Shown one piece after another: positions 3,770 through 30,593 of a stretch of DNA of 64,000 bases. The notes under the pieces are model-generated. The model was not told the DNA's origin. It saw nothing but the letters and a program-made list of their open reading frames with translations, and searched no databases. The translations under genes and the position numbers were made by a program. Source of the stretch: Pyropia yezoensis (taxonomy: Eukaryota; Rhodophyta; Bangiophyceae; Bangiales; Bangiaceae). The number at the start of each line of letters is the position of its first letter. Positions within the stretch are counted from its first letter, which is position 1. Location: positions 20,341,816 through 20,405,815 of the forward strand of contig CM020619.1 of assembly GCA_009829735.1 (NCBI GenBank), read 5' to 3'.

Positions 3770-5884
3770 CTAGGGAGACCGATACTGGCCGAAGATATAG
3801 GCTGGACCACTACCTAGAGGGTCCACAGCCGGACTACGCCAGTAAGCTGTCTCTGCCGCCTGACGGAGAGAGAGGCTTGGAACGGCCATCTGCGTATCTG
3901 CGCTCGCGCGGTGAATCTCACGCACCAGGCGCTCCCGGAGTGCCTCAACCGAAAGGAGAGGCAAAGCCACTCACGGGATCTCACGCCACTCCCGACTGGT
4001 GGACGTAACGACCGCTCACTTGTTGGCTAGGCTCGTGTAGGCCGGACATTGGGCCATCACGAGGGAGTCCCACACTGCCCCCGAAAAAGGCGGCAAGGCC
4101 CCTCAGACGCGCTCTAAGGCAACCTCCGCCGTCCCCGCAAGGGGGCGCGACATGGCCCGGGGATCGTCCCCAAATGGAAATCGGCCACAGGCTGCGGCAC
4201 CAGGGCCGTCCGATTATAAGGCATCAGGACCATCTGTCCAGGGAAGTCCCTCCCCGCTCGCGAGGGAGACGGACGAACCCGACCAGCACCACGTGCGGTC
4301 GTCTGTCGACTGGGGACGGGCCCCGAGCCGTTCAACTCCCGGCCAAAGCCAGGTAGAAGCGGACGCTCCTTTTCGAGGCGGGGCTCCATAGGAAGAACAC
4401 CCTTCCAGCGGGGACAACCCGCTCACGTAGTGGAGCTCCTCGTAGCTCGTATTCTCACGAGACTAGAGGACTCCCTCGGGGGTCAGCGTCCGGCTACAAC
4501 GCACCACCCCATTGGGGTGCTAAGCCGACCCAAGGAGAAAAGGCGTAGCCGAGCGATGGACCTGCTCGACCAGGTTGAGGGCGGCCTCCGAAAGAGCCGC
4601 CATCTCCGGATGACCCGGACACAACACCGACGGCGTCAGCCGCCGAATAACCTCTACCAGCGGCAGAGGGATAAGCCACAGGTGGCTTAGGTGCCGGACG
4701 GCCGCAGTTAACAAGAAAGCCGTAGCCACCTTCTAACAAATGTAGAAACTGTCCATTACCGCAGCTCCGACGGAGCCCTTGACCATGACGCTTTCCCGAA
4801 GGGCGGGCGCTTCGCGAACACGCACGGCCATACCGCTCGGCTCCTCAAGTACATCCCACCACTGTGGGGTGAGGGGGAAGTACTTGACACGGTCGGGGAC
4901 GAAGAAGGCCACCATCTCCTTCTGCTCCGCCGTGGTGATAGCGCCATGATGTACAAGGAAACGCCGCTCTGCCAAAGCCAGGCGTAGGAAGAAGCCAGGG
5001 TTGTCAACCCCCGGTACGGGGGGCGACCCCGAGTATTGGTCCAGGCCCGCCTCGCAGGCCATCCCCACCACCAAGGGCGGCCGATCGACGATGATCTGCA
5101 GCTCCCGACACAGGTTCTACTCCTTGGCAACACGGACGAAGGCGTAGTCGGTGGCCTTTCTCAACCGGACCTCAAAAACTTCCGAGTAGAACACGCGGAT
5201 GCTCCGCCAGACCGTGGCCATACACCGCGAGTGGAGAGACGCCAAACGCGTCGTGGCCAGACAAGGTCGCGGGTGGGGGTTGGAGAACTCCTGAGCTGTG
5301 CTATGAAAGCCTGCTGTGAGGTCTTTGCGTCCCCAGGCACGGCTCCTCTCTCTGCCGTTCGGGATTTTGTGCCCTCCGCCGTGCCTGCCCGTGAATCATG
5401 GGCGCGAAGCGGGATGGCCCATGCCCCCTTGCCTGGGCCTCGCTATGGCTACACCCCCTCACTCGGGACCTCTGTGGGCACGAGAGGGGCAGGGTTGGCC
5501 TGCCAATGCTACGTTCCCGCCGGGGGACGCTTTGAGCCTCCTTCGCCTCTGAATAAGATGTGGAAGCAAAGGGTTTCTCCCCCAAAGAGGGTCTGAGGGG
5601 GCAACCCCCCTCTCGGGGCGTCACTACGTGCCCCACCCCTTTTGGCGCGCCAGGTGGGGCGACTAGGAGAGTGGCCTGGATGGTGTCACGTCGCCCCCTG
5701 ACGGGGGGTGACCTTGCACTAGGCGGGCCTCTCTTGACGCCACACGGCGATGCGGGGTCGCGGGACGCTCCCCCCTTGAAGAGGAAGAAATATGGGGATC
5801 CAAGCGATCCCCCATCATTTGCGCTGGGGCACTGCCCGGGCGATACGGTGTCATACGGTGCCACTGATGGCACGGCCCGCACAC
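3770..5884 (-). pseudogene. Antisense accessory gene of gypsy D, decayed
   Basis: On the strand opposite to pol, downstream of the chromodomain, open segments at 5884-5663, 5074-4733, 4729-4520, 4426-4214 and 3970-3770 all lie in one reading frame, separated by in-frame stops. That is what a decayed long gene looks like. The readable core contains KYFPLTPQWWDVLEEPSG, then after about 75 residues PLVEVIRRLTPSVLC and EMAALSEAALNLVEQV. The antisense frame of family B has a comparable block (TYYPKVIPQ, stop, QEVEKMVG, then LTIDFLC and EYKELFQATIDF) at similar spacing. The function is unknown and I recognise no domain. The region upstream of 5074 is Pro/Ser-rich. Confidence 0.5.
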
Positions 5885-6442
5885 GTGGAGCCCTTACTGG
5901 GTGGCCACGCGGCTAGCCGCATGGCCCTCATCCGGTGGGTCCCGCCGGGATCCTTCGGCTCACCCAGCAAAGGGGTCACCCGAGACCGGCACCGGCATCT
6001 CCGCGGGATGCTCGATTTGGGCGGGCGCAAGCCAGATCCGATTGCATGCGCTTTGCCCGCAATAGGGGGGCTACTTGTTTTTCGAATTTCAGCATCGTTG
6101 AGGGATTTGTTGTCGTCTTTGCTTTGAGGCCATTGCCCCGCTGGCTATGATGACCCGTGGGAGGAGGGCGGAGAGACTCCTGCTGACACCGCTGGCATGG
6201 AACATGATCGGCCCGCACGTGGCCCGGGGTGTAGGGTCGCTGGGTGCGGCGTGAGGGGGGTATATGTGCGCATGGGGGTGCTCGCTGCTTGTCACCTTCG
6301 TAAAGGCAGATTTCTGTGTGCGTGAGTACTGCGGCTTTGGTGCGTGCTCGTCACGTCTTAGACAGCCAGACGGTTGGGCGCTCCGTATCTCACCGGTCTC
6401 CCTGTGTTTTTCCACCGTAAGGTTTTCTGTTTTATCTGGGTG
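5885..6442. other. Non-coding tail of gypsy D
   Basis: No convincing coding sequence was seen. The only notable feature is a purine tract (gtgaggggggta, about 6250-6262) followed by tgtgcgcatgggg, which could be the polypurine tract and the start of a 3' LTR of element D. No second copy of that LTR is in the window, so this cannot be confirmed. Confidence 0.3.
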
Positions 6443-6962
6443 CTAGACGCATACACCTTGAAACCACTACAGCCTTGCCGTCTACGGTCGGCGACAGCTT
6501 CACGGTGTAGAGGACTGCCTGCAGACCCTCCGCCCAGAGGTCAGTCGGTAGGCCAGAAGCCACGAGAATGGCACGTCGGTGCTCCATGATGGTCCGGTTG
6601 GCCCCGTCTGCCCGCATGTTCTGCTGCGGCGTGCATGGCGCCGTCATCTCTACAGTGATGCCGTTCTTGTTAAAGTACGCCGTCATTTCATTCCTTGTGA
6701 CTATCTCTTTGGCGTCGTTTATGTGGACCGGAGCCACCCTCTGTCCGACCAGCACCGCAAGCCGGTCGAATCAGTTCAGGAGCGAGGCCCCCGCGTCTCC
6801 CTTGGTCTTGAGGGCGGTGCCCACCATCAGCGCGGTGTGGCAGTCCCCGATGCCTATGAAGTGTCGCGCCCCGCCACGGTATGGAGGCAGCGGTCAGAAG
6901 AGGTCGACAAGTAGCATCTTCAAAAGGCAGGTCGTCGTCCGCTCCGTCGAGCCAAACGGCGC
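6443..6962 (-). pseudogene. Ty1/copia integrase fragment
   Basis: The - strand from 6962 down reads FYTRAPFGSTER, YRGGARHFIGIGD, TALKTKGDAGASLLN and APVHINDAKEIV. The diagnostic copia integrase block NGITVEMTAPCTPQQN follows, then LPTDLWAEGLQAVLYTVKLSP. The GI....P.TPQQN motif and the LP..LW.E. helix are specific to Ty1/copia. It has at least two in-frame stops and is truncated at about 6443. On its other side it abuts the 3' LTR of gypsy B1. It may be the distal part of the copia element whose gag-protease lies at 26,615-38,402, but the segment between protease and integrase is missing, so a second copia copy cannot be excluded. Confidence 0.75.
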
Positions 6963-7338
6963 TCTGGTATAGAACTCGATCATCTGAGACACGTGTCAAT
7001 ATCCCTCGGGGGAAAGGGACAGGTAACACAGAAAGAGAACGACGAGAGAGGTATGCCTGTTGCCTCACGTGCCTGCTTGTTGAGCGAGCTGATACGCACG
7101 GTAGTGCACACGGGGAAGAGGAAGCAAACGAGCAGTTGTCTTTTTCCTGAGGGCGCGGGCCAAGGGCGCCTTGCTGTCCTTCTGAACGTGCATCTGGGGG
7201 AGCCTCCGCACGTTGGCCAGGTAGCCCTCCCATACCTTCGAGTGGCCCCGAACCGAGTCTAACCTCGTCAGGTCGGGGGCCACTATCACTACTAATTCTG
7301 TTCCCACTCACTAATCTCACACTCAAATTCTCTAAAAT
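6963..7338 (-). repeat. LTR of gypsy B1, distal part
   Basis: This is the distal two-thirds of an about 556-bp LTR homologous to 17,888-18,461 and 26,037-26,614, in reverse orientation. Its outer end reads TCTGGTATAGAACTC, the mutated counterpart of TGTGGTATAAAACTC. The LTR is broken at 7339-7343 (caagt), the target site of element A, and resumes at 13,830. Confidence 0.8.
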
Positions 7339-7343
7339 CAAGT

Positions 7344-7831
7344 TGTGGCAAAAACCACTCGCGCACGCGCCACCCAAGTCGAAGCGGTGCGCAAGGGCTG
7401 CCTGTCGGGTCGGGGGAACCGGAAGAAGTGCAACTCGCGCACACTCTGTCCCTGTTGTGGGGCAATCCCCCCACTAACAAACAAGAAGATGGCGTGTGGG
7501 CCAACAGTTTCTTGGTCGGGACGGGGAAGCAAGGCCGAGCCGCGCAGTCCCTCCCCTTATCCCCCCAGGGTCCTCTCAGAATCTCGGCGCTCAGAATCTC
7601 CCATCCTAGCACCTGCCCACCGGGCCACACGAAAATTGAAGATGATAAATGCAGCGAACCCTCAAATCCAAGATGGATTTACCACTAAGCTAACTATCCC
7701 GAACTAAGTCAACTATCCCAAACTTAGGGAATACGGACCCAAATGCATGGGGAGGAACGGGTCATGCTAGTGGCCCGCCGCCCCTTGCATGGCACGTGTT
7801 GCCATTCTACCTGGGGGTCAATACTGCCAAA
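7344..7831 (-). repeat. 3' LTR of element A
   Basis: This is the direct-repeat partner of 13,356-13,824. It is 488 bp against 469 bp and differs by small indels and base changes. On the - strand it is preceded by a purine tract (832-845 region offset: GAGGAGAGGGGAT at about 7832-7845). Open frames inside it occur in both LTR copies and are not taken as genes. Confidence 0.85.
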
Positions 7832-8166
7832 ATCCCCTCTCCTCAGTTCCGACCGACCCGGTCAGCCCTGCTAGGGGGCGTAGAAACGCACATCGCGGCG
7901 TTGGGGGCGCGACTTGTCGTCCCCCTGGTACGTCACGTGGGCGTGGAGGCGGTCACGTTGACTGCCCCTCTCCTCAAGGTTGCCCACTTCGCAGCTTGCT
8001 CATATCGGTACACACCTCACTACCACCAACACATCCTCTTCACCTTACCCTGGGCCGGCCCACGCTGGGGAGGCCACCAATCTATCCGCGATCCGAGCCC
8101 CTCTCACCTCGAGGTGGGTCTCGTGCAACTGCAACCAGGTCGTCTCTCCCTAACTTGGGGAGAGCC

Positions 8167-8370
8167 ATGGTGACCCCGGGGGTAGAGACTGACTCCTTGG
8201 ACGAGCGTATGGAGGACACGGCCTACGATGTAGCGCCCTCCGGGACTTCCGGCGGGGGCTCCGCGATCGCTCCGGGGGATGAAACGCCCGCGTCACCCGG
8301 CTTTGGGTTGGCGGCGGGATCTTCCCCGGAGGCGGGCCGCGTTGTTTCACGACAGGCCTTGGGGCGGTAG
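8167..8370 (+). pseudogene. Possible stub of an antisense accessory gene in element A
   Basis: This is a 67-codon frame on the strand opposite to pol, between the truncated integrase and the 3' LTR. It starts MVTPGVETDSLDERMEDT and is Gly/Ser/Pro-rich. Its location and orientation match the start of the antisense genes in elements B and C, which also begin in a low-complexity Ser/Pro/Ala-rich segment just inside the 3' LTR. There is no sequence motif to prove the relation. If real, most of the gene was lost in the deletion that also removed the integrase C-terminus. Confidence 0.25.
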
Positions 8371-9327
8371 TTTCACCCCGATTGGCCTATGTATGAGGAG
8401 GGGTCGACGGTTCTCCGCTGTGGCCGACTTGGCACAGCGATGGGCATAGTTTGCCTCAACCCCCAACATATCCAGCACTCCCTGAAACAGTACGGACGCA
8501 AACTGCGGTCCATTGTCCGACAGTGTACTGTCCGGGATGCCATAGGCGGCAACCCAGTAGTCCAGGGAGGCTGACACGACCGACATGTCCGTGATCTCTG
8601 CCGGAGGGATCGCTCACGTAAGATTTTTGAAGCGGTCGCAGATGCCCAGGAGGTACTGACTACCCTCCTCGGTCACTGGCAGGGGCCCAAGGATGTCCAT
8701 TGCCAACGCGGCAAAGGACTCCTTGGCCGGGAACAGCATCATAGCCGTAGTAGGCCGCCGTTCCATCAGACGGTTCTGCGCACAATTTGTGCAGGCAGCC
8801 ACCCAACTGTAGATGTACACCACCATGGACGGCCAGTAGTACCTGGTCCTCAGGGTCTGGTACAGTTTACTAGACCCCAGGTGCCCACCTGTGGGAGCGT
8901 TATGCTCCCTCTCAAGAATAATTTCATGAAGGGATGCGGGGACGACAAGTTGTTCAGTTCCCTGGTTTACCTCCCTCCTCAAGAGGAGTCCATCGTCCCC
9001 GACAAAGAACCGCGTCTTCGCCATCGTATCAAGCGTATCCCTTGGCGACTTGCAGAATGAATCCTCGGCCTGGGCCTTCTCAACCTCGTCCAGGGACAGG
9101 GGCAAGTACTTCTTCTTCCCTGGCGCCTCGGGGTTCAACGCCTGACCCAAGCGCGTGACGACCCCCACGATGGGGATGTCCTCATCAATTGAGTTTGTGT
9201 CCAGCCCCTCGGTAGGTACACGAAAAAGGCCGTCGGCTAGCGCATGTTGCCTGCCGGGACAGTATTTCATATCAAAGCTGAAGGGGTCAGTCGCACTCTC
9301 CACCTGTTCAGGCGTGTGTTCGTGCAA
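8347..9327 (-). pseudogene. Element A integrase, truncated
   Basis: The - strand reads the RNase H end (HALADGLFRVPTEGLD), an HHCC zinc-binding region (EHNAPTGGHLG then AACTNCAQ) and the start of the DDE core (MDILGPLPVTEEG). A TGA at 8616-8614 lies in the same frame as the continuation LDYWVAAYGIPDSTLSDNG, which holds the second catalytic Asp. A Glu about 34 residues later (KSATAENRR) may be the third catalytic residue, but the conserved HPQ..GQ.E block is lost. The frame ends at 8347 without the C-terminal barrel or chromodomain. It is a nonsense-mutated and truncated pseudogene. Confidence 0.75.
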
Positions 9328-9707
9328 TCCGTTTTAAAGGTGAATTGCAACGCGCGGTGGTCACAGCGGATGAGGAGCTTCTCACCCTCTAGGTAGTGAC
9401 GAAGTGACGTCACCGCCCACACCACTGCGAATCCTTCCAACTAGGTGACTCCATAGTTCTTCCCTGCCGAGTTCAGCCCCTCGCTGAAGTATCCTACCGG
9501 CAAGTACTCCTTGTCCAGCTGCTGCTGAAGCAACACACAATCAAGTTGTTTGTAGCTCGCGTCCACATCCAGGACGTAGTGGCCTCTCAACCTGGAAAAA
9601 GCGAAGATAGGGGGCTTCACCAAAAGGTCCCAAAGAGTCTTAAAGGATTCCTGCTTCACCCGACTTGGGGGACAGGTGCTTCGGTACCGTTGAGCTAACA
9701 AGCTCAT
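9328..9707 (-). pseudogene. Element A RNase H, frameshifted
   Basis: The - strand from 9707 reads ESFKTLWDLLVKPPIFAF, RGHYVLDVDASYKQLDCVLL and EYLPVGYFSEGLNSAGKNYG. These are the RT-RNase H junction and the RNase H core with its catalytic Asp region (DVDAS). A stop occurs at 9441, and the rest (RHYLEGEKLLIRCDHRALQ) continues in another frame before the next open segment. At least two breaks therefore disrupt the domain. Confidence 0.7.
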
Positions 9708-10551
9708 TCAAAGGCTTCGCCACCTTGGCAAAGCCCTTCGTGAAACGTCGGTACATGTTACACATCCCGAGGAAGCTCCTCATCTGGGTCTGGGTCCGGG
9801 GGTACTGAGCCTTACGGATGGCCCTCAAGTTCTTCTCGTTGACACTGACGCGCCCCGGACGGACAACATGTCCCAAGTATTTCACCTCTTGAGTGAAGAG
9901 GTGGCACTTACTTGCCTTCAGTGATACACCGGCGTCAGCAAGTAGCTTGAACACCTGCCCAAGATGGCCAATGTGTTCCTCCGGACTTCGGGAGAACACA
10001 ATGATATCGTCTAGGTACACAAGACAGACCTGCCAACTTACTCCGGCCAGAATCATGTCCATGGCGCGCTGGAAAGCTGCTGGCGCGTTGCATAGTCCAA
10101 ACGGTAGTCGTTTGCAATGGTAGGTACAACTGCGACAGGTAAAGGTAGTTTTATGCCTGTCCTCTGGGGCAGTGGGAATTCGCCAATACCCCTTGTTACA
10201 GTCCAGGGCAGAGAACACGTTAGCCTCCCCCAGAGAGTCCAGACAGTCGTCCATCCTAGGGAGGGGATAACAATCCTTCACCATGCTCTCGTGGAGCTTG
10301 CGGTAGTCGATACAGAACCGTGGGGTCCCATCAACTTTGGGGACAATGACCACCGGACTCGCCCACTCGGCGTTCGGGTCGCTACTCACGCCCGCGTCGA
10401 GGGTGACCGCTACTACTGGCCCCTCATGTTGGTCGTTGTAGCCAAACTTGGCTCCCGACTTGAAGTACTTGGGCGAGGAGCTCAGTTTCATCACCTGAAT
10501 CCTCCACGGGACTCCGGCTTTGGCGTCCATCGTTCCAAGGGCAACATGCAC
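9640..10551 (-). pseudogene. Element A reverse transcriptase, catalytic motif intact
   Basis: About 300 codons read a nearly complete Ty3/gypsy RT: SDPNAEWASPVVIVPKVDG, FCIDYRKLHESMVKDCYPLP, LDCNKGYWRIP, LPFGLCNAPAAFQRAMD, then the active site CLVYLDDIIVFSRSPEEH with both Asp of YLDD, and the thumb EVKYLGHVVRPG. It lies in the same frame as the protease upstream, separated by one TAG (10,560-10,558), and is followed by a frameshift near 9650. The RT module itself looks able to fold, but the polyprotein is broken on both sides. It is the least decayed RT of the window together with element C. Confidence 0.8.
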
Positions 10552-14004: not shown

Positions 14005-14907
14005 TAGCTCCTTCCCTAGTCCTGCACGTCCTCGGGCCGTACCACGTGCCACCGTGCACAGCCTCGAACAAGTCCACACCGGTGCCGAGGTCGAGCGTCT
14101 GCAGCAGCTAAACTTCCCCCAGTTGTGCCTGTTGCACCGGTTGCATCGCCTTTGCCGTTTCCGGCGCGTGTGCGCAAGGCTGTACCTGTACCAGTGCTCC
14201 AGGCTTCTCCGGCATCATGCTTATCTGCTGCGGCTCTGAGCGATGCCATCTGGTCGCTGAAGCTTCTGACCGTTTCTCCTCGGGCGCCTTCTACGCCTGG
14301 TGGCGGCGCGGTGCCCACCCTTGAGTTGGGGACCTAGGATTCCGGCGCCGCTGCTGGTTGTCCGGGTGTGGCAACCTCGGGTCGCTTCGAGATCCCAGCG
14401 CCGACTCTGAGCCTTCTCCGCTTTCGGGTACCCGATCGGTACATGACTGAAGGTGGTCCGGCGTGCGACTAGTGCGACGTGAACATGATCGAGGACCAGC
14501 TTTGCCGTCTTCCGGTGCAGCTCGAGGGCGTTGGGTCTTCCTTGGTGCTGAGCACGTATGCTAGCGTCTTGAACCACGTGGTCGACGAGGTGTTTGCTTG
14601 CGAGGACAGCGGCCAGATGTCGGACAGCCCTGTGGTTGGTGGGCTTTTGGCGACTTTGACCCGGCATGGCTTGGCCCAGCGTTGGTCAGGAACCTTCACG
14701 AGGTTCCAGGAGAGTCGGCGGGTGTATCCGGAGGAGCGGGAGCGTCCGGCGGCTACTAGTGCTTCTCCGGTGGCGGAGTACGTGGGAGCGCTTCGGCCGC
14801 CGCACTACGTCATTCCGCCGTGCTCTGGGTCCCGTCGTGTTGCGGAGGCGGCGCTGGAGGACGCCCCCGCGGCGCAGCTGTCCAGTATTCGCAGGAGGCC
14901 GACGTAA
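14005..14907 (+). pseudogene. Antisense accessory gene of B1, deleted version
   Basis: This is on the strand opposite to B1 pol. Bases 14,479-14,907 are open for 142 codons (MNMIEDQLCRL..., then GGLLATLTRHGLAQRWSG) and are the inverted copy of 24,141-23,713. Upstream, 14,005-14,478 matches both ends of the corresponding stretch in B2 but lacks about 1.4 kb of the middle, so this copy is an internally deleted relative. The role is unknown. Its C-terminal part is compared with that of element C in the findings. Confidence 0.5.
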
Positions 14908-15457
14908 CATCCACGGCCGTGATGGTCCTTGGCGGGATCGCTAGGGTGTACTTGGAGAACCGGTCAAAAATGAAGAGCAGGTATACGTTGCCGCTGGATG
15001 TCTCAGGTAGGGGCCCCAGGATGTCCATGCTCAAGCTTGCAAATAGCTCCGCCGCAGGAAACAGGCGTAGCTTGGCTGTCTTCTTCCTCTGGGTCAGCTC
15101 ATTTCTTGCGTGGGAGACACAGGCCTCTGGATGTTTGTGGACGTCACTTGCCATGGTTTCCCAGTAGTACTCTCGCCGCATCGAGGCAATCATCCAGTTG
15201 ATTCCAGAGTGTTCGGCCTGGGGAGATGAGTGTTCCAGGCGGAGGATATCAGCTCGTAGGTTTTGGGGTACGTAGACTTCAGTTGCCCCATCGAAGGGTG
15301 ACACCCGTATCAGGAGTCCATCCGTAGACTCGGAGAAGCGACTATTCCGGTTCAGGACCATCTGGTGGAGCAGCTCTAAGCCATGAGGATCCTTGAGCTG
15401 TGCCTCGAGCATCTGGTGAATGGTTACAGGCTGGTCGGCTTCAGGTGACTTGTACAT
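14810..15457 (-). pseudogene. B1 integrase, truncated core
   Basis: The - strand frame reads a zinc-binding region (LEHSSPQAEHSGIN ... CVSHARNE, with the CC pair degenerate) and the core start SLSMDILGPLPETSSGN with the first catalytic Asp, then VYLLFIFDRFSKY. After VDVTSASCEYW the sequence leaves integrase and runs into the C-terminus of the antisense gene. The second Asp and the Glu are absent. The same truncation occurs in B2, so it predates the duplication or was copied. Confidence 0.7.
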
Positions 15458-16238
15458 GAATGATTACCGGTTGATGAGCTTCGGGTGTCTCATACAGGGG
15501 AGCATGCCAGCCACGTCCGACATGCGGGAGGATGAAACAAGCCATTTCCTCCGGGATGAGGCCTGTGTCGGCTGCAGGTGTCTCCAACCGGGACATGGTG
15601 TCGGCGCAGTGGTGCCTCCTCCCTGCTCTTGTGCACACCGTATAGTTAAATTCTGAGAGGCGTAGACGCCATCCGGCAACTCTTCCATGGCTGCTGTCCA
15701 TGCATGGCAGGCACCTTAGGCTGGCGTGGTCCGTCCAGATGAGAAACTCTTGTCCTTCCAGATAGGGGCGTAGCAAGAAGCACGCCCAGATGACCGCCAG
15801 GCCCTCGCGTTTCGTCGTGGAATAGTTCTTCTCGACTGGATTAAATATGCGACTGTAGTAGCCTACCGGGAGGAAGTGCCCATCAGGTTGTTGCTGGAGT
15901 AGAGAGCACCCCACCCGGACGCCACAGGCGTGAGTCTCTAAAACAAACTGGCCCTCCAGCTCAGGTAGCGCAAGTACTGGAGTCGTTGTCAGGCGCTTCT
16001 TGAGCTCCTCGAAGGCAGCAATCTGCTTCTCGTCGAATACCGGGAGTTGTGCGGGGAGCTTCTTGCTGGTGAGTTTGGTAAATGGCCAGGCAATCAGGGC
16101 ATAGTCCCGGACGAACCGGCGGTAGACGTTGCACATACCCAGAAAGCTGTTGAGTTCCGTCTGGGTCTTAGGTTGCCGGGCTTGTCGGAGAGCCTTGATA
16201 TTCTTTTCGTTGACCCGGAGCTCCCCCGGACTCAGCAA
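15441..16238 (-). pseudogene. B1 RT thumb and RNase H
   Basis: 265 codons read LNSFLGMCNVYRRFVRDYA (RT-RNase H link), TTTPVLALPELEG, LLQQQPDGHFLPVGYY and EFLIWTDHASLRCLP, ending HHCADTMSRLET. The RNase H start reads FVLETHACG where an active enzyme has ..TDAS, so the first catalytic Asp positions are replaced. A one-base loss separates it from the RT frame upstream. Confidence 0.7.
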
Positions 16239-16273
16239 GTGCTCAGGTACTCCACTTCCGTGTCAAACAGGTG

Positions 16274-17587
16274 TCACTTCTCGGCCTCCAGGGTAACTCC
16301 AGCCTTGGATAGGAGAGCCAAAACCTCTCGAAGGTGCTCTAGGTGTTCCGCTGGGGTCTTGGAGAAGACGATAATGTTGTCCAAGTAAACCAGATATGTC
16401 CTCCAGCTTATTCCCGACAGGATGATATCAATGGCTCTCTGGAAGCTAGCCGGAGCATTGGTGAGGCCAAAAGGAGGACGCTTGCACCGGAATAGCCCCA
16501 TATGGCACGTAAAGGTGGTTTTATCCTTCTCCTCGTCGGCCAGAGGGACCTGCCAGTAACCGGCATCACAATCCAGTGTTGAGAAGGGGGTGGCGTCACC
16601 AAGGAAGTCGATGCAATCGTCCATCCGGGGTGTTGTGTACGCATCCTTGACCGTCATCTCGTTCAGGCGCCTGTAGTCTACGCATAAACGGAGGTGACCG
16701 CCAGGTTTCGGGACGCCCACCACCGGGAAGGCCCACTCGCCATCGGAGGGCTCGATAACATCCACCTTGAGCATCTTGTTAGCCTGCTTCTCAATCTCAT
16801 CCCGGCGATGTGGTCCAGCCCGATGCGGTTGCAGGTGCACTGGCTTGGCATCCGGCTTGAGTTGAATCCGGTGTAGGGTGGCATCCATATTGCCCAGCTC
16901 TCCAGACCACAGGTGCCGATATTCCTGGAGAAGCTTCTCCAGTGCCTCCTTCAGGTCGGGCGGGACATTTTCTTGGTTGACATTCGGCATCCTGGGTGGT
17001 GCATGACCGGGTCTCGGGATAACGCTGCCGGTCTGCTCTTGTCCCGGAGGTATGTCTTGGGCGGTTACGTTCGAAGCCAGTTCTTGTTGCAGGCTCAAGA
17101 GGTTCTCCTTGCTCAGGGCAAGAACAGACCCTCGGTAAGGTTCTGCCGTTCGAACTCCAGTACCCTTTGCGAGAGTAATCGGCTGTTGGCGCACGTTGAC
17201 GATTAGCACCGAGAATGGGATGTGCCTCTCCACCTTCTTGTGATGTCCGTGGGCAAGGTATAACCGGTGTTTTGCCGGAAATTCCTTACGTCCGTAGATC
17301 AGGCATAGACCCGCAGTCCGGGTGTTCACTTGAACCTTGGTCTCCGAATGAGGAGGAAGGAGGACTGGTTTGAAGAGTGTCAAGGTAGAGGGTGGGATAC
17401 GGTCCTTCTTGCTCTTGACTACACGAACCTTGGCGTCAAGATGCTCCAGCGCCGGCGACACAGACCCATGATTGAACTGCACATTTTCTTCTCTGGGCAG
17501 GATACTCTTGACCCGCTGCTTCTGGAAGTCCCAGCCTAATGTGAGGGGGACTGAGAGGGTCTTGACTACGAGAAAGGGAAAAAGCAT
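16274..17587 (-). pseudogene. B1 protease tail and reverse transcriptase with YLDN
   Basis: 437 codons are open. Protease-end motif TLSVPLTLGWDFQK at the N-terminus; RT from about residue 250: VIEPSDGEWAFPVVGVPKPG, LCVDYRRLNEMTV, LDCDAGYWQVPLADEE, PFGLTNAPASFQRAID. The active site is LVYLDNIIVFSKTPAEH: the second Asp of YLDD is Asn, which should abolish polymerisation. A TGA follows GVTLEAEK, where intact elements continue with a Cys. Both defects are shared with B2. Confidence 0.75.
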
Positions 17588-17703
17588 TGGTTCATTTTAG
17601 ACAAAGATGGCGACAGGAAGGCGGCCAAGCGGTCGTAGGGTTTGACCTGAAGCGCCTACAATCCTGGCCTTCGTAGGGGCTCTCCAGGCTTGTCGACGCC
17701 AGC

Positions 17704-17887: not shown

Positions 17888-18461
17888 TCAAAAAGCCATG
17901 GCCCTGACTTGGCGCCGACCCGGGATGGCGACCAGAGGGCACCAGGTGCCAGGACACGCCCGTCGTGTGGGGATGGTTGGCGGCCGTGGCCCGTGCCAGG
18001 CACTGAAATGCGGCGGACTACGCTACTCTCACGTGAGAGAGGGACTTCTGATGGGTTTTTGCATATTGGTGAGGGACTGGATTTGACAGAATTTGAGTGT
18101 GAGATAAGTGAGGGAGAATAGAATTAGTAGTGATAGTGGCCCCCGACCTGACGAGGATAGACTCGGGTCGGGGCCACTCGGAGGTAGGGGGGGGGGCTGC
18201 CTGGCCAACTTCCCAAGGCTCCCCCAGATGCACGTAAAGAGGGACAGCGAGGCGCCCTTGGCCCGCGCCCTCAGGGAAAAAGACATCTGCGCGTTTGCTT
18301 TCCTCTTCCCCGTGTGCACTACCGTGCGAATCTGTTGGCTTTGCGAACAGGCACGTAAGGCAAGAGGTATACCACTCTCGTAGCTCCCCTTTCTGTGTTA
18401 CCTGTCCCTTTCCCCCGAGGGATATTGACACGTGTCTGAGAGGATCGAGTTTTATACCACA
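17888..18461 (+). repeat. 5' LTR of B2
   Basis: Direct repeat of 26,037-26,614. The start is blurred (TCAAAAAGCCATGG against TGTAGCATCCCTGG); the end is TTTATACCACA. It contains a poly-G run near 18,186-18,195. Confidence 0.75.
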
Positions 18462-20434: not shown

Positions 20435-20916
20435 GGCAGGCGCTCTCCCCATGTGTCTTCCCGCATCTCCGACGTCAGGGTCCTTCTACCCGTTATCCCG
20501 CTGCGTACCGGGAGAGAGGACGGCAGTTACCTGTTCAACTGGTAGCCGCCTGGACACCCTGTTTGTTCAAGGGTACCTTGCTCGTCTTGCGTACGGAGAA
20601 CCTCAAGATCAATCCTCATATGCCTCTGGGGGAGCCTCCCCCAAGCTGTTCCTCCGGTGGTCGGCACGGGTGTAGCATAATACATAATCACAGATCGGCT
20701 TACTTAAAAATGGTTGGTACTCGTTATGAGATGGGGTTAGAACCCGAAATCTGGCTCGACATGTCAGGGATTTCACCCGGTTGCCAAGTGGTTTGAGCGC
20801 GCCATTCCTCTTCCTTCTCAAGGGCCCGGGTTCAATTCCGACTCTCCAATATCTACTTTTTCGTACCACAACGGGAGCCGGACCCAGGGTCAATACTGAG
20901 AACCCGCTACCTCCGA
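20435..20916 (+). other. Decayed protease start and a tRNA-like insert in B2
   Basis: Bases 20,535-20,590 read TCSTGSRLDTLFVQG, which may be a retropepsin active site with DTGS changed to STGS. From about 20,690 the sequence is AT-richer and non-coding. It holds TTGCCAAGTGG (20,781-20,791), close to a pol III A box, and GGTTCAATTCC (20,829-20,839), a perfect match to the B-box consensus GGTTCRANYCC, then TTTTT near 20,857. The stems of a tRNA cloverleaf do not pair, so it may be a SINE or tRNA relic. Confidence 0.35.
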
Positions 20917-22346
20917 GCTGGCGTCGACAAGCCTGGAGAGCCCCTACGAAGGCCAGGATTGTAGGCGCTTCAGGTCAAACCCTACGACCGCTTGGCCGCC
21001 TTCCTGTCGCCATCTTTGTCAAAAATGAACCAATGCTTTTTCCCTTTCTCGTGGTCAAGACCCTCTCAGTCCCCCTCACATTAGGCTGGGACTTCCAGAA
21101 GCAGCGGGTCAAGAGTATCCTGCCCAGAGAAGAAAATGTGCAGTTCAATCATGGGTCTGTGTCGCCGGCGCTGGAGCATCTTGACGCCAAGGTTCGTGTA
21201 GTCAAGAGCAAGAAGGACCGTATCCCACCCTCTACCTTGACACTCTTCAAACCAGTCCTCCTTCCTCCTCATTCGGAGACCAAGGTTCAAGTGAACACCC
21301 GGACTGCGGGTCTATGCCTGATCTACGGACGTAAGGAATTTCCGGCGAAACACCGGTTATACCTTGCCCACGGACATCACAAGAAGGTGGAGAGGCACAT
21401 CCCATTCTCGGTGCTAATCGTCAACGTGCGCCAACAGCCGATTACTCTCGCAAAGGGTACTGGAGTTCGAACGGCAGAACCTTACCGAGGGTCTGTTCTT
21501 GCCCTGAGCAAGGAGAACCTCTTGAGCCTGCAACAAGAACTGGCTTCGAACGTAACCGCCCAAGACATACCTCCGGGACAAGAGCAGACCGGCAGCGTTA
21601 TCCCGAGACCCGGTCATGCACCACCCAGGATGCCGAATGTCAACCAAGAAAATGTCCCGCCCGACCTGAAGGAGGCACTGGAGAAGCTTCTCCAGGAATA
21701 TCGGCACCTGTGGTCTGGAGAGCTGGGCAATATGGATGCCACCCTACACCGGATTCAACTCAAGCCGGATGCCAAGCCAGTGCACCTGCAACCGCATCGG
21801 GCTGGACCACATCGCCGGGATGAGATTGAGAAGCAGGCTAACAAGATGCTCAAGGTGGATGTTATCGAGCCCTCCGATGGCGAGTGGGCCTTCCCGGTGG
21901 TGGGCGTCCCGAAACCTGGCGGTCACCTCCGTTTATGCGTAGACTACAGGCGCCTGAACGAGATGACGGTCAAGGATGCGTACACAACACCCCGGATGGA
22001 CGATTGCATCGACTTCCTTGGTGACGCCACCCCCTTCTCAACACTGGATTGTGATGCCGGTTACTGGCAGGTCCCTCTGGCCGACGAGGAGAAGGATAAA
22101 ACCACCTTTACGTGCCATATGGGGCTATTCCGGTGCAAGCGTCCTCCTTTTGGCCTCACCAATGCTCCGGCTAGCTTCCAGAGAGCCATTGATATCATCC
22201 TGTCGGGAATAAGCTGGAGGACATATCTGGTTTACTTGGACAACATTATCGTCTTCTCCAAGACCCCAGCGGAACACCTAGAGCACCTTCGAGAGGTTTT
22301 GGCTCTCCTATCCAAGGCTGGAGTTACCCTGGAGGCCGAGAAGTGA
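20917..22346 (+). pseudogene. B2 protease tail and reverse transcriptase with YLDN
   Basis: The open frame reads a retropepsin second half (LGRLPVAIFVKNEPMLF, TLSVPLTLGWDFQK), a long linker, and RT with WAFPVVGVPKPGG, LCVDYRRLNEMTV, DAGYWQVPLADEE and FGLTNAPASFQRAID. The active site LVYLDNIIVFS lacks the second catalytic Asp (codon AAC). TGA follows LEAEK at 22,344-22,346, then a one-base deletion near 22,374 shifts the frame. It is the same as B1 in all these defects. Confidence 0.75.
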
Positions 22347-22381
22347 CACCTGTTTGACACGGAAGTGGAGTACCTGAGCAC

Positions 22382-23179
22382 TTGCTGAGTCCGGGGGCGC
22401 TCCGGGTCAACGAAAAGAATATCAAGGCTCTCCGACAAGCCCGGCAACCTAAGACCCAGACGGAACTCAACAGCTTTCTGGGTATGTGCAACGTCTACCG
22501 CCGGTTCGTCCGGGACTATGCCCAGATTGCCTGGCCATTTACCAAACTCACCAGCAAGAAGCTCCCCGCACAACTCCCGGTATTCGACGAGAAGCAGATT
22601 GCTGCCTTCGAGGAGCTCAAGAAGCGCCTGACAACGACTCCAGTACTTGCGCTACCTGAGCTGGAGGGCCAGTTTGTTTTAGAGACTCACGCCTGTGGCG
22701 TCCGGGTGGGGTGCTCTCTACTCCAGCAACAACCTGATGGGCACTTCCTCCCGGTAGGCTACTACAGTCGCATATTTAATCCAGTCGAGAAGAACTATTC
22801 CACGACGAAACGCGAGGGCCTGGCGGTCATCTGGGCGTGCTTCTTGCTACGCCCCTATCTGGAAGGACAAGAGTTTCTCATCTGGACGGACCACGCCAGC
22901 CTAAGGTGCCTGCCATGCATGGACAGCAGCCATGGAAGAGTTGCCGGATGGCGTCTACGCCTCTCAGAATTTAACTATACGGTGTGCACAAGAGCAGGGA
23001 GGAGGCACCACTGCGCCGACACCATGTCCCGGTTGGAGACACCTGCAGCCGACACAGGCCTCATCCCGGAGGAAATGGCTTGTTTCATCCTCCCGCATGT
23101 CGGACGTGGCTGGCATGCTCCCCTGTATGAGACACCCGAAGCTCATCAACCGGTAATCATTCATGTACAAGTCACCTGA
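22382..23179 (+). pseudogene. B2 RT thumb and RNase H
   Basis: 265 codons, near-identical to 16,238-15,441 on the other arm (differences such as GAL for GEL and DYAQI for DYALI). RNase H reads FVLETHACGVRVG, HFLPVGYYSRIFNPVEKNYS, FLIWTDHASLRC and ADTMSRLET. The catalytic Asp positions of the first motif are lost. Confidence 0.7.
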
Positions 23180-23810
23180 AGCCGACCAGCCTATAACCAT
23201 TCACCAGATGCTCGAGGCACAGCTCAAGGATCCTCATGGCTTAGAGCTGCTCCACCAGATGGTCCTGAACCGGAATAGTCGCTTCTCCGAGTCTACGGAT
23301 GGACTCCTGATACGGGTGTCACCCTTCGATGGGGCAACTGAAGTCTACGTACCCCAAAACCTACGAGCTGATATCCTCCGCCTGGAACACTCATCTCCCC
23401 AGGCCGAACACTCTGGAATCAACTGGATGATTGCCTCGATGCGGCGAGAGTACTACTGGGAAACCATGGCAAGTGACGTCCACAAACATCCAGAGGCCTG
23501 TGTCTCCCACGCAAGAAACGAGCTGACCCAGAGGAAGAAGACAGCCAAGCTACGCCTGTTTCCTGCGGCGGAGCTATTTGCAAGCTTGAGCATGGACATC
23601 CTGGGGCCCCTACCTGAGACATCCAGCGGCAACGTATACCTGCTCTTCATTTTTGACCGGTTCTCCAAGTACCCCCTAGCGATCCCGCCAAGGACCATCA
23701 CGGCCGTGGATGTTACGTCGGCCTCCTGCGAATACTGGACAGCTGCGCCGCGGGGGCGTCCTCCAGCGCCGCCTCCGCAACACGACGGGACCCAGAGCAC
23801 GGCGGAATGA
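23163..23810 (+). pseudogene. B2 integrase, truncated core
   Basis: 215 codons: zinc-binding region (RLEHSSPQAEHSG, CVSHARNELTQRKK), then LSMDILGPLPETSSGN, LLFIFDRFSKYPLAIP. Integrase similarity stops at about 23,745. The final residues (PRGRPPAPPPQHDG) come from sequence antisense to the accessory gene. The second catalytic Asp, the Glu and the C-terminal domains are missing, so the element depends on another integrase. Confidence 0.7.
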
Positions 23811-25959
23811 CGTAGTGCGGCGGCCGAAGCGCTCCCACGTACTCCGCCACCGGAGAAGCACTAGTAGCCGCCGGACGCTCCCGCTCCTCCGGATACACCC
23901 GCCGACTCTCCTGGAACCTCGTGAAGGTTCCTGACCAACGCTGGGCCAAGCCATGCCGGGTCAAAGTCGCCAAAAGCCCACCAACCACAGGGCTGTCCGA
24001 CATCTGGCCGCTGTCCTCGCAAGCAAACACCTCGTCGACCACGTGGTTCAAGACGCTAGCATACGTGCTCAGCACCAAGGAAGACCCAACGCCCTCGAGC
24101 TGCACCGAAAGACGGCAAAGCTGGTCCTCGATCATGTTCACGTCGCACTAGTCGCACGCCGGACCACCTTCAGTCATGTACCGATCGGGTACCCGCGAGA
24201 GGGAATGGCGCAGAGTCGGCGCCGGAATTTCAAACCGACCCGAGGATGTTTCACCCGGAAGGCTAGCACCGACGCCGAAAACAGGAGTACCCACTTCAAT
24301 AGTGGGCACCGAGCCGCCACCAGCCGTAAGGGTCGCCCGAAGAGGAACGGCCGGAGTAGTAGGCGACCGGATATTGATGCCGGGAGCAACGCCAAGAGCC
24401 TCAGCAGGCAAACGCGGTGCCGGAGGAGCCTGGAGCACTGGTGCAGGTAGAGCCTGGCGCGCACGTGCCGGCGACGGCGAAGGCGAAGCTGCCGGTGCGA
24501 CGGAAGCAACCGGAGGATCTTGAGCAGCTGCAGACGCCCGACCAACCGCCGCAGCCCACCCCGACTCTAGTACCGGTGGCCCAGACGGCAGCACGTCCAG
24601 AGCGGCCGGCACACGAAGACCTCCCAGCTGCGGCCACGCTGGCAGCGGCGTCGCCAGCTGCACCATGGGTGGAGAATTCTGGTAGACCACCTGCACCCAA
24701 CCGGAGCCATCCCGACGCGGGCTACTCTGGTCGGCAATCACGTTCAAGAAGGTCCGGTCATGTACCGGGAGTTGAAGCCGGAAGTCGATCGTCGCCTGGA
24801 AGAGCTCCTTGTACTCCTGATCCTGACTGCACAAGAAGTCGATGGTCAGCTTGTCGACAATACAGACCATCACTAGGTCCGAGAGGAGCCATAGGCGGTT
24901 AGACACCAAGACCCCGTCAAGCCAGTGGTTGGCGGCCAAGACCATCATCTCGGAGGTGTACATCATTCACGGGATGGAATGAAAGAAGCCCTTGATTGAC
25001 GCCTGAGTCAGGGAGTCCAGGAAGAACCAGGTGAAGGCGATGCTGGATGGAGCGAACCCGACCATTTTCTCGACTTCCTGCTACTGCGGGATGACTTTGG
25101 GGTAGTACGTTGCCCGGTTGGCTTTGTACAGCTTTCAGACCTCTTGGTTGTCGCAGCTCACGATGTAGTCCCGCTGGCGCGCACGCCGCTCGCCTTGTTC
25201 CCGCGCCGGCGACAACATGGAGTACTTCCTGGTCAAGAAAGGCGGCTCCAGAGCGACCGTACTCGGACGGGGATTGCAAATCAAGCTCCCCGGCTCCTTG
25301 AGCGCCTCGTCCCAGACCTTGGGGGCCCGGCGGACGTAACCCTCCTCCTTCGGCCACCGGAGAACGGACCCAGACTCTCGGCGCTCGTTCAGGGGAAGAT
25401 CGAGCACCAGCGCAAAGGAAAGCTCCTCCCGGCGGGAAACCCAAGATGAACCAGAAACGTTCTGGGAGCGGTCTTGAGCCAGGCGCATCTGGTCCGCCGT
25501 GTAGAGACGCATCTTGTCCATCTCCGTCCAGACCCTGTGCTGGAGTTACTTGCGCCACATAGCGAAACAGTCTTGCTGGCACTGGACCGAGCTGGCGTTA
25601 CTGACCACCGTGGAGTAGCGCTGGGTCGCCAGGGGATCCGGACCAAGAACCATCTCCAGGAGATCCGCCGGGGGGGTCTCGACCGGGCGCGACGCTGGAA
25701 CCGGGGGCACTTGAGCCGTCTCCTCGCCAGTGACGACCGGCGTCCGCGCCGACACTCGAGGAACCGGAGCCAGGAGAGGGGCACGGCTGCCTAAGTTCCC
25801 CTCCGCGACACTCACCACCGAAGCCACGGGCCTAATTAAAATCTCGGAGCTGGACATACCGTCCAGAACCAAGGGGAACGGGAAGGCCAAGGTGAAGGAG
25901 GGGGGGGCAGGGCTGGGGAAGGTGATCAGGCTCGGGGTGAAGCCGCTCGACCTCGGCAC
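23713..25959 (-). pseudogene. Antisense accessory gene of B2, five in-frame stops
   Basis: Opposite to pol, between integrase and the 3' LTR, one frame runs about 749 codons from 25,959 to 23,713. It is interrupted only by TAA (25,548-25,546), TGA (25,137-25,135), TAG (about 25,085), TGA (about 24,967) and TAG (24,150-24,148), without a frame change. It begins MSSSEILIRPVASVVSVAEG and has Ala/Pro-rich segments. A middle block (ATYYPKVIPQ, stop, QEVEKMVG; DKLTIDFLC; EYKELFQATIDF) resembles the element D frame, and the C-terminus has MTEGGPACD and GLAQRWSG. No known domain was recognised. A few stops look like single transitions of Trp or Gln codons. Confidence 0.55.
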
Positions 25960-26036
25960 CGGTGTTGGTGTGCTTGAGGCAGTGCACGGTGGCAGCTGGT
26001 ACGGCCCGAGGACGTGCCGGACTAGGGAGGGAGCTA

Positions 26037-26614
26037 TGTAGCATCCCTGGCCCTAGCTTGGCGCAGACCCAGGATGGCGACCGGGGGGCACCAGGTCCCA
26101 GGACACGCCCGCCGTGTAGGGATGGTTGGCGGCCGAGGCCCGTGCCCGGCACTGAAATGCGGCGGACTGCGCTACCCTCACGTGAGAGAGGGACTTCTGA
26201 TGGGTTTTTTCATATTGGTGAGGGACTGGATTTGACAGAGTTTGAGTGTGAGATTAGTGAGGGAGAATAGAATTAGAAGTGATAGTTGCCCCCGACCTGA
26301 CGAGGTTAGACTCGGGTCGGGGCCACTCGAAGGTAGGGGGGGGGGCTGCCTGGCCAACTTCCCAAGGCTCCCCCAGATGCACGTAAAGAGGGACAGCGAG
26401 GCGCCCTTGGCCCGCGCCCTCAGGGAAAAAGACATCTGCGCGTTTGCTTTCCTCTTCCCCGTGTGCACTACCGTGCGCTGTTGGCTGTTGGCTTTGCGAG
26501 CAGGCACGTAAGGCAAGAGGTGTACCACTCTCGTAGCTCCCCTTTCTGTGTTACCTGTCCCTTTCTTCCGAAGGATCTTGACACGTGTCTGGGAGGATCG
26601 AGCCTTATACGACA
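26037..26614 (+). repeat. 3' LTR of B2
   Basis: Starts TGTAGCATCCCTGG and ends CCTTATACGACA. It is a direct repeat of 17,888-18,461, and preceded by the purine tract GACTAGGGAGGGAGCTA. Confidence 0.85.
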
Positions 26615-27264
26615 CGCCCGTCGGCCGTCGTTACTTCTCTGGTTTGGTCCGACTCGTATTCGGTGAGTGTCCTCGTGTCTTTGGTCGTGTGTCGGGTCCC
26701 CCCAGAGTCCACGACTTACTCCGTCAGGCCAGCACTCGTCGCTGGCATCTGGACCCTTGCCGGGATTGCCTGTGCGGCAAGGCCGTTCGATTGCCCAGAA
26801 TCTGGACACCCGGTAGATTTCCGGATCACATGGTCGCTCAGTGCCGCTGTTTCCATAGCGGCACCGCCGCCACCCGTTGCTGGCCCCCCACCCTTAGGTG
26901 GTGCCCCTGACCCGGCTTGACCCACCCTGGCGGTTGCACTCGTTGGAATAGTGCCCGCGCATGCCGCAGTTTCAGCAGGTGATGCGGCGGCGCCGCTCTG
27001 CCGCCAGACGCTTCCTCTCCTCGGCTGTCGCGCCAAACGCCGAAGTGGCTTCAGAGCTGAGCGACGTCGTCGCCGTCTTGGTTTTTGACAGCCTGTTCTT
27101 GATGCTTGCTTCCGCAACCTTTAGGGGGGCTACCACGTCCAGCCACGTAGGCGGGACACGCTGGTTCGTGATAAACGTCACAATGCACTCATACTCGGGC
27201 TCGGTGATACCCCCCAACATTTGAATGATCGCGTGGCGGTTACCGATCTGCTCCTCCGACACAC

Positions 27265-27627
27265 TGTAGCACAATAGGTATCCGCTGCACGTCCAATCTC
27301 AGGGAACACTTACCAGGCGGGATCGGCACCAACGTCACCGGGGGGCCAAGGTTGCTGTCCTTGGAGCGCAAGCCACGGGACCAAGATGGGAGCCCAAATG
27401 GGAGGGGTTTGTTGTTCCACCATGGCCGGCGGTGGATTCGCCGCCGGCCCCCTCGTTATCAACCCTCGGAGACACTACTAAGTACCCTCCACCCCAAGAT
27501 GCAAGTCTCTCTGGTCATACGTAACTTATAGATACCGTGACCAGTACGGACTCCCAAATTGAAAGTAAAGGGTTAGACGTAGCCCCCCTAATATTAGGAT
27601 CACAATACGGCCAACCATATTGCTACA
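27265..27627 (-). repeat. 3' LTR of element C
   Basis: 363 bp, TGTAGCA...TGCTACA, preceded on the - strand by AAGGGGGGGATA. Confidence 0.93.
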
Positions 27628-28354
27628 TATCCCCCCCTTAGATTCGGCCCGTCCTCGGGTCGAGTTGCATTCGGGTTACCGAATGTAAGTGGGTCGCGTG
27701 ACCGTCTACCAGTCTGGTGGGGCTTTGCGCCCTGTCGCGACAGACACCCCTTTTCGAGGTTGTCTGAGGGGGGTGCCCCCCATTGTGTGGTACACGCACG
27801 ATCCGTTTTCCGGACCGTTGAATTCCCGATGCGGGTTCTGTTCACGACCCCCCTTTCCGAGGGGTGGTGCAAGCGGATCCGCCACCAGGCGTCGGGTGGT
27901 AGGGGGGCCCCTGTCGCGGGACGATTGAGTGGGTGGCTGGGGCTGCCCGCGGTGCGTGGGGGCGGATGGGGGTGACCCCCCTTGGTTACACCGTGTGGAG
28001 GGGCGTGGCCCCGATCCAGGTGCCTGGGTGGAGCGCCCTCGTAGCTCGGCTGGCGCGGGTCGTCCCGCGCTGCCGTATCGCTCGTGCTGAGCTGTGTGGT
28101 TATAAGCGCGGGTGCCCGCGCTTCCCTGGCTCGTCTGCGCGAGCGTTCCTTGTACCGGGTCGAGCCGGCTGCGGCTTTTTGGCACGGGGCGCCCCTGCTT
28201 CCTCGGCTCCACCATGTAGGACCCCCAGGTACCCGGGGGCGAGGACGACCTCTTGCATGACGAGCACGAGGACGTGATGGTGGACGACGTTTTCGTCTCT
28301 GCCACCGCCGCCTAGTGCTTCTTAGAGAGCTCGTCGGAGGACAAAGGCGACCGG
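27628..28354. other. Leader between the 3' LTR and antisense gene of element C
   Basis: GC-rich sequence without a supported gene. It contains several short G/C inverted repeats (for example around 27,765-27,785 and 27,845-27,865). By position it would be the upstream region of the antisense gene. Confidence 0.35.
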
Positions 28355-30593
28355 GTGACCGTTCGTGTGGCCCCGGAAGGCGCGCCGGGCGGATTGTCGT
28401 CCGTGTGCGGCGGCACGACGGCTCCGTCGGGTGGCGGGCAACCGCGTGTAGCGGCTGCCTCTACCCCTACTCCTCCGGCGGCCCGAATGGCTCCTGTCGC
28501 CGGTGCTCGCGCGGCTCCACCTCAAGACGGCGTCGCCGGTGTGTCGGACGGTCGTGGCGGCACCCCGGCCGGGACGGCGGGTCAAGACGGCGCGCATGCC
28601 CGCCCGGTCGGTGTGTCCGTGGCGGCGGGTAACGGGTCTACCCCTGCTGCCCCCCTGGTGCCCACGTCGGGCCCGGGTGGCGGCGATGCTCTGCCCGCGG
28701 TGCCGCGGGCGCTTGGTGGTGAAGAAGTGTCTACCCCGATGGCGGTGGACTCCGGGAGCTACTCCGGGCGGCCGCCCGCCCTTCTTCTTCCTCCTCGGCC
28801 CCGTGCTTCTCCGGTGCCGGCCCATCTGCCGGTGGGGCTCCCCCCGGCGCCCCCGATTCTTCCTGGTCCTGCCCGGGTTGCCCCGTTGGGTGGCGGCGTC
28901 GCCTCGGCGGCAGGTCAACTCGCCATGTCGATTTCCGATATCGTGGCTTGGGTTCGAGGCATGACTGTGCAGGAGTCGATGGACTCCGCTGGGCGGATGC
29001 GGGTGGACTTCCAACAGCCGCATCTTCCTGGAGAGACCTTCCGACGCGTCAAGGTGGACCCGAGTTGAGAGCGGGAATTGGTGCGGCTGGTCAACCAGCC
29101 GAACGCGGTCCGGGTGGAGCATCATTGGATCCTGAGCCAGCCGGACGACCGGAATGCGCAGCTCTGGCGCACCCGGATGGGGCGGGGTGAGGTCTAACTC
29201 GACTCCGCCTGCGGGATATGCGACTTGATTGCCCCCGCATTGCCGCGGGAGGTTGACTACCCGGCTTTTGCTCGGGGGACTGCGGCGGCGGCGGAGCCGG
29301 TTGCGTTTGGGGAGACGGTGGGTGATACCGGCCGGTATCCCGGGTTCGAGTGCTTCCCGGGGGTACCCGGGGGTATCCCCGTATCTGACGTTGACGGCTC
29401 CGTACCCGCCCATGGCGGGGCTGAAGTCGGCGTTGAGCTGGCGACGCAACCATGGTGTCATGGCGGATGCGTTCCGCACCGATATAACGTGTGCGTTGCA
29501 GACCGGTAACGGTCGCGCGCCGGTGTACACTGCCGTGCACCCGCCTCTGTGGCAGGAGGGGTGGGAGCCCGCCCCTGCTTTCCGGTTTGACACCGGCTCC
29601 TGTCTCCGATACTTCGGGAGTGTGTTGGCCTCCCGGCCGGTCCACCTGTTGCAGGGTACCTTCACCCTTGAGGTTACCCTCGGGCAGGCTTCCTCCTTCT
29701 TGCTGTCCGTCCGCCGGCAGGGGCGCCTGTTTCATCTTCCGTCGGGTGTCCGTCGGCATATCGGGCAGCTGGGCGTGGACATGATAGCTGCCAAGACCGG
29801 GTTGGCCCGGGATTTCGAGGCCCTCCTGGCTGTTCACGATGCCGTGAACTGGGCGGGGGTGTTGGCCCTTCCCCTGTACCGGGACCCGCAGGCTGGGGCT
29901 TCCCCCTTGCCTCGTCACTCGTTGCGTATCCGGCGTACTCAGCCGGGTGAGCCCAATTGCCGGGGGTGGGCATCCACCGAGGCTGTTCCTGACCTGGGTA
30001 TTCCCATGGTAATCCATGACCCTCTTCAGATCCTCGCCCCGTGGTTCGGTAAACCGATACCGATGGCGGTTGGCCGTCGTCTCCGAGAGTGGGGCTCTGC
30101 GGTTGGGGAGCGTGAGGTGTCCCGTCGTCGGGCGGAGCCCCGCCGGGCTTACGGTGGAGCCCCTTCCGTGGGGTCCTACCGGGCCTTTTATCAGGCGCCA
30201 TCGGCTCCGGTCGTAGCCGTGTCGGCTCCTGTGGCTCCTCTGGCTGCGCCAGTGTCACCTTCCGCCCCTGTCATGCGTGACGGGGGTCCCCGTCTATGGT
30301 ATGAGGGCGTTGACGCCCTCATTGCCCGTGAGATGCAGGAGTGTCTCTCTGTTAGCTGGGGGGATATCCCTCCAGGTGCTGCGCTGGTTCGGTCCGCGCG
30401 TTGCTTCGGTGGCGTGCTGGACGGCCTCCAGTCCGCTCTGGCGGACGTGGAGGCTGGCCGCAGCACCCTCGTCCAGCTATGCACCGAGGTAACTCGGGTG
30501 ATTGACCGTCGTGAGATTGCCGACCGGTGGAGCATGGAGGTGTACGCGCTTACGCGCGAGTGGCCTCCCTCGGGCAGTGGGTCTACCCACTGA
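28355..30593 (+). pseudogene. Antisense accessory gene of element C
   Basis: Opposite to pol, between chromodomain and 3' LTR. The first frame (28,355-29,068) is Pro/Ala/Gly-rich and ends MSISDIVAWVRGMTVQESMD and GRMRVDFQQPHLPGETFRR. It continues in frame past TGA (29,066-29,068) and TAA (about 29,196), then shifts near 29,390 to the frame of 29,229-30,593, which is open for over 400 codons. That part has AVHPPLWQEGW, GQASSFLLSVRRQG, DFEALLAVHDAVNWAGVL and a C-terminal domain from MRDGGPRLWYEGVDALI to REIADRWSMEVYAL. Parts align loosely with the antisense frames of D and B. Function unknown; it is the least decayed copy. Confidence 0.55.

Follow-up and report, generated by a model that had tools for sequence, protein, structure and literature searches.

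A predicted protein-coding gene antisense to pol in three gypsy retrotransposon families of the red alga Pyropia yezoensis

Three families of gypsy retrotransposons in the red alga Pyropia yezoensis, referred to here as C, B, and D, carry a predicted protein-coding gene that lies antisense to pol, in the space between pol and the 3′ long terminal repeat (LTR). The elements lie in a window of 64,000 nucleotides (nt; genome coordinates 20341816–20405815) that was analysed at its full length, and unless stated otherwise positions are those of the window. The genome around it is described as comprising three chromosomes, with 48% repeats that are mostly LTR retrotransposons (PMC7423979). A first-pass annotation of this DNA had proposed an antisense gene at the same place in several gypsy families, and both the anatomy of the elements and the bias of shared substitutions bear this out for C, B, and D. 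All copies of the gene in the window are broken. The explanation that we consider probable overall is an antisense gene under purifying selection in the three families, which would be expressed from an mRNA of its own and would encode a regulator.

The evidence for selection comes from substitutions among aligned copies, divided into private variants, found in one copy and mostly arising after insertion, and shared variants, found in at least two copies and mostly inherited from the multiplying lineage. The ratio of nonsynonymous to synonymous changes (N/S) was corrected for mutation types, and counts are given by antisense codon position 1/2/3. For family C the shared counts are 49/47/120 and the private counts 252/181/263 (p 1.2e-5), with N/S of 0.35 for shared and 0.82 for private variants; the two halves of the gene give shared values of 0.46 and 0.29. 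Family B, represented by eight copies with B1 partial, gives 54/39/126 shared against 155/172/207 private (p 3.8e-6), with N/S of 0.37 and 0.81. For family D, where five old copies were compared over one piece of 849 nt, the counts are 10/3/23 and 100/102/143 and the ratios 0.23 and 0.69, the private class here also including older changes because the copies are few and divergent. The shared values thus span 0.23–0.37 and are not near 1, and in all three families the excess of shared substitutions at third positions excludes a chance open frame, as the first-pass annotation had argued from the letters.

The pol of family C, treated alike as a control, gave N/S of 0.43 for shared and 1.05 for private variants. 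When the sense strand is read in register with the antisense frame, the shared N/S is 1.64 in C, 1.50 in B, and 1.27 in D. The sense −2 frame also gives low shared values (C 0.47, B 0.40, D 0.36), because its third positions are common to it and the antisense frame; it holds stops, numbering 5 among 315 codons and 10 among 507 in C, and 11 among 536 in B. Taken together, the substitutions indicate that the antisense gene has been kept by purifying selection while the elements multiplied, and that in C this selection is about as strong as that on pol.

The position of the gene relative to integrase could be followed across the genome. Listed matches to the C integrase lie within 6 kb of 18 of the 67 places found with P0003 (a C-type query), and in all 18 pairs the two are on opposite strands, tail-to-tail, and 1031–1079 bp apart, a fixed distance on which we reject a nested foreign insertion. 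Among the 150 places found with P0010 (a D-type query), a listed match to the D integrase lies no more than 6 kb away in 35 cases, and all 35 pairs are again tail-to-tail on opposite strands, 630–2009 bp apart, at identities of 25–73%. The arrangement therefore holds in all 53 same-family pairings found; the other 49 C and 115 D places are uninformative because only 150 of 4609 C and 143 of 4344 D integrase candidates were scored. One cross-family pair, outside the 53, joins P0010 with a C integrase on the opposite strand at a gap of 5056, and there was no other.

Element C shows the anatomy most fully. Alignment to 20 genomic copies places its broken gene at 28214–30593 on the plus strand, from an ATG at 28214 to a stop ending at 30593; the first-pass annotation had given 28355–30593, of which the end stands and the start moves upstream to the ATG of the intact copies. 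In the window copy codon 2 is a stop, and the long open pieces 28316–29068 and 29229–30593 are in different frames. A TATA-like sequence, TTATAAG, lies at 28100–28106 (plus strand), 114 nt ahead of the ATG, and may act as a promoter. The predicted product of about 789 residues begins with an N-terminal part rich in Pro, Ala, and Gly, followed by a conserved core of about 270 residues, a linker rich in Pro and Ala, and a C-terminal block. On the minus strand, pol occupies 31552–34902 in several open pieces that include a protease-like part, reverse transcriptase (RT), RNase H, and integrase (Pfam RVT_1, RT_RNaseH, Integrase_H2C2); the RT, RNase H, and integrase zinc-binding domains fall within 32212–33852, and the Pfam rve match falls under its cut-off. 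Two open pieces further upstream, 35220–37409 (minus strand), are taken as gag by position, no Pfam match being found in 35220–36893. Self-comparison identified parts of the 3′ LTR at 27248–27627 and of the 5′ LTR at 37608–37985 (both minus strand; the former 96.3% identical to the latter).

Family B is present as two elements in inverted orientation. In B2 the antisense gene is broken into open pieces on the minus strand, from the ATG of an MSSSEIL start at 25857 to about 23713, as supported by the relatives L059–L064 and P0005 and by the substitution test. Its pol, at 20730–23810 on the plus strand with RNase H at 22358–23179 (Pfam), ends abruptly in the integrase part, overlapping the antisense gene at its 3′ end, and parts of the 5′ and 3′ LTRs lie at 17896–18461 and 26045–26614 (plus strand; 93.5% identical by self-comparison). 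B1 is an inverted copy of B2, 98% alike over 3456 nt (14248–17703 against 20917–24372). The inverted matches cover B2 20917–24372 and then 25938–26091, and no counterpart was found in B1 of the B2 stretch between 24372 and 25938, which holds the start of the gene. B1 had been read from the letters as a comparable copy at 14005–14907; these matches leave it only the C-terminal remainder, at 14248–14907 on the plus strand, with an open piece at 14473–14907. In both arms the frame of integrase extends into the antisense gene from its 3′ side, and B1 and B2 look like members of an internally deleted, non-autonomous sublineage.

The gene of element D is decayed and lies at 3770–5294 on the minus strand, with a match to P0010 at 4466–5062. 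Its start had been put at 5884; alignment to L032 places it near 5294, and the open piece 5301–5912 aligns upstream of the gene start in better copies. The adjoining plus-strand frame, 2607–3644, is an open piece taken as the 3′ end of D pol. It has no Pfam match itself, and the corresponding plus-strand frame of L033 is integrase-like and matches at 143 of 143 scored genomic places.

Copies elsewhere in the genome are numerous. For family C, 40 of 1116 candidates were scored and all match, comprising the window and 39 further places at 91–95% identity; the window and 20 of these 39 made up the set of 21 copies used here. Seven are intact between the shared ATG and the usual end (789 codons in six of them, 808 in one), so that intact frames exist, which had been left for checking. 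One further copy stops about 10 codons early and the remaining copies are broken at varied places. The ATG is kept in all 21 copies and the TATAA at 114 nt upstream in 18. With P0003 all 67 scored places match (2176 candidates), with frames of 662–1086 codons and no internal stop in 45. P0010 matches at all 150 scored places (1331 candidates) at identities from 92% down to 24%, of which 114 lack an internal stop, and P0006 (a B-type query) has at least 249 genomic matches, 124 of 673 candidates having been scored, with the great majority free of stops among the matches listed. On the contig that holds the window, at 9880067–9892399, four P0003 matches follow one another on one strand in exact steps of 3489 bases, forming a tandem array that contains the antisense gene.

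Homology between the families was assessed by comparing profiles with column shuffles (200 for B–C and 193 for C–D, B–D, and B against merged C+D). The C–D score of 35.3 was reached by 0/193 shuffles, the highest being 23.6, and B against C+D scored 36.1, again reached by none (highest 19.2). B–D scored 23.0, reached by 1/193, and its alignment pairs the same blocks of B and D that had been matched by eye in the first-pass annotation. This similarity above shuffles provides good evidence that the C and D genes are homologous and fair evidence that B belongs with them through C+D, as expected of one antisense gene in C, B, and D. The likeness of the C-terminal blocks of B and C around RWS, also remarked on earlier, was reached by 2/200 shuffles. 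The C-terminal comparisons of B with D (16/200) and C with D (21/200) are not significant, and evidence for a C-terminal domain common to the three is weak.

Protein searches with C and B scored the best 8000 candidates. Residues 330–825 of the C protein have four relatives, two of which, MMPV_009242 (50%) and MMPV_008948 (43%), come from Pyropia vietnamensis, where they are annotated as hypothetical proteins, and match over 99% of the region searched; both are probably transposon genes counted as host genes. B has two relatives and D seven, all without names. Pfam, NCBIfam, and PDB sequences yielded no relative of the antisense protein, and a Pfam scan of 7 antisense pieces from the window gave no match. 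The nearest results were one weak Pfam match, to DUF6214 in P0001 (E 0.014, below cut-off), and, for two profiles, a single chance-level match each in PDB sequences (E 0.87 and 0.62). An origin from gag, RT, or integrase was rejected after 15 comparisons, in which each score was reached by at least 6/40 shuffles, these being single sequences of limited sensitivity.

Genes of this kind are known from other LTR elements. Antisense accessory open reading frames (aORF-3R) are described in plant gypsy elements, among them maize Grande with its gene23, rice RIRE2, and Silene Retand (PMC7264820). The comparison with Grande made in the first-pass annotation holds for position; gene23 has its own promoter and its product is nuclear (PMC7264820). 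Like the aORF-3R genes, the red-algal gene lies between pol and the 3′ LTR and antisense to pol, both in the window anatomy and in the 53 pairings, and is kept in many of the copies listed and, in C, constrained much like pol; it differs in its red-algal host and in having no sequence relation to them that Pfam detects. It shares place and orientation with the TRP28 gene of Retand, together with a long region between pol and the 3′ LTR. A regulatory role has been proposed for the TRP28 proteins, and their Transposase_28 domain is given as confined to flowering plants (PMC11963269). Identity with TRP28 was rejected, as none of 8 red-algal antisense proteins matches Transposase_28 (PF04195) at E up to 10.

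Outside plants, HBZ of human T-cell leukaemia virus 1 (HTLV-1) is a bZIP protein and far smaller, and unlike it the red-algal antisense proteins have no bZIP match in Pfam. HBZ resembles them in being an antisense accessory protein of an LTR element (PMC11963269). Boty of Botrytis cinerea, likened here by description, has an antisense open reading frame between pol and the 3′ LTR (PMC7264820), and a survey of Ectocarpus describes an opposite-strand gene in a DNA transposon (PMC12477816). Searches of a collection of open-access papers, a scope that leaves most subscription papers outside, brought up no red-algal example of such a gene. The protein family and the host group appear to be new; the kind of gene is already known.

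Because the gene runs against pol, its protein, if made, must come from opposite-strand RNA. We infer that a dedicated mRNA is translated, one that starts near the border of the 3′ LTR and is opposite in direction to the genomic RNA. The protein may be a trans-acting accessory regulator affecting how its own element is expressed or silenced, a tentative proposal to which we give somewhat less than even odds; it is judged the likeliest role because of the analogy with Grande gene23 and the Retand TRP28 proteins. Several observations weigh against the selected gene and its regulatory role. Fourteen of the 21 C copies are broken, and no TATA-like counterpart was found at the corresponding place in the B and D copies examined. 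B–C alone scored 18.1, reached by 20/200 shuffles and not significant, so that the profile similarity expected between families was obtained for C–D, B–D, and B against C+D and failed for B–C by itself. The hhalign probabilities are low (C–D 30–40%, B–D and B–C about 1.5%, B against C+D 41%) because the profiles are shallow. A basic cluster is present in C and absent from P0003, P0005, and the D piece, and since there is no conserved nuclear signal the regulator role rests on analogy.

VANC of VANDAL transposons is an anti-silencing factor, and the sharpest form of the regulator reading is that the red-algal protein works in the same way. Such a factor would fit the gene's graded divergence inside a single genome (92% to 24%) and its many open copies, whereas no known domain was found in Pfam or NCBIfam, and we regard this form as unlikely. 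That an ancestral element captured the gene from its host is a matter of origin and compatible with a regulatory role. The gene's third-position guanine plus cytosine (GC) content of 0.72–0.76 lies between that of pol (0.61–0.69) and that of two host-like genes of the window (0.75 and 0.78), but mutation bias alone could produce this difference, and neither the protein searches with C and B (best 8000 candidates) and D nor those of Pfam, NCBIfam, and PDB sequences found a host or other relative, which leaves capture an improbable origin. A structural or movement protein in place of envelope is less probable again: the position is that of env in retroviruses, but the gene is on the opposite strand and lacks a conserved hydrophobic segment, the best 19-residue mean hydropathy being 1.29–1.67 at unrelated places among the proteins, and on these grounds envelope identity was rejected. 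A role of the RNA only, in which an antisense transcript pairs with genomic RNA and feeds small-RNA control, has been raised for plant elements (PMC7264820), and convergent genes would yield double-stranded RNA; it leaves unexplained both the codon-position constraint and the protein relatives at 43–50% identity in another species, and is very improbable as a sole role, although RNA and protein roles may coexist. An alternative in which the real third gene is on the sense strand, GC-rich codon bias leaving its mirror frame open by accident, is scarcely credible and we grade it as already contradicted: GC content here is 0.68 and the sense strand of C is also open in register for 545 codons in 4/21 copies, so that openness alone decides little, but the shared N/S of that strand far exceeds the antisense values in all three families and its low-scoring −2 frame is interrupted by stops in C and B.

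The window holds further features apart from the antisense gene. Two stretches at 373–1012 and 2276–2915 form an inverted repeat of 640 nt, 97% complementary and 1263 nt apart. On the minus strand, 41243–43098 contains hAT-like transposase remains (DUF659, with Dimer_Tnp_hAT just under the cut-off) and 47260–47988 a DDE_3 transposase fragment. A Plant_tran/DDE_Tnp_4 transposase at 50232–51437 (plus strand) is adjoined by a weakly NAM-associated-like frame at 52526–53929 (minus strand), and the two are perhaps a Harbinger-type pair. A Globin domain lies within a long GC-rich frame at 54321–56951 (minus strand), perhaps a flavohaemoglobin-like host gene, and a long secreted-looking frame at 60574–62736 (minus strand) ends in a Hint module.

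For the antisense gene itself, a broader and distinctly speculative reading is that it represents one ancient family travelling with many Bangiales gypsy lineages, with a diverging product that acts in trans to shield the element encoding it from host silencing or to tune that element against it; we hold this to be rather doubtful. If true, red algae would independently possess their own equivalent of the antisense accessory genes known from plant elements and deltaretroviruses, and this would be one of the reasons for the abundance of LTR elements in Bangiales genomes. A selected protein family without detectable relatives occupies this place in a red alga, which points to a benefit of the arrangement for the element, and intact copies of graded divergence within one compact genome make the functional question testable.

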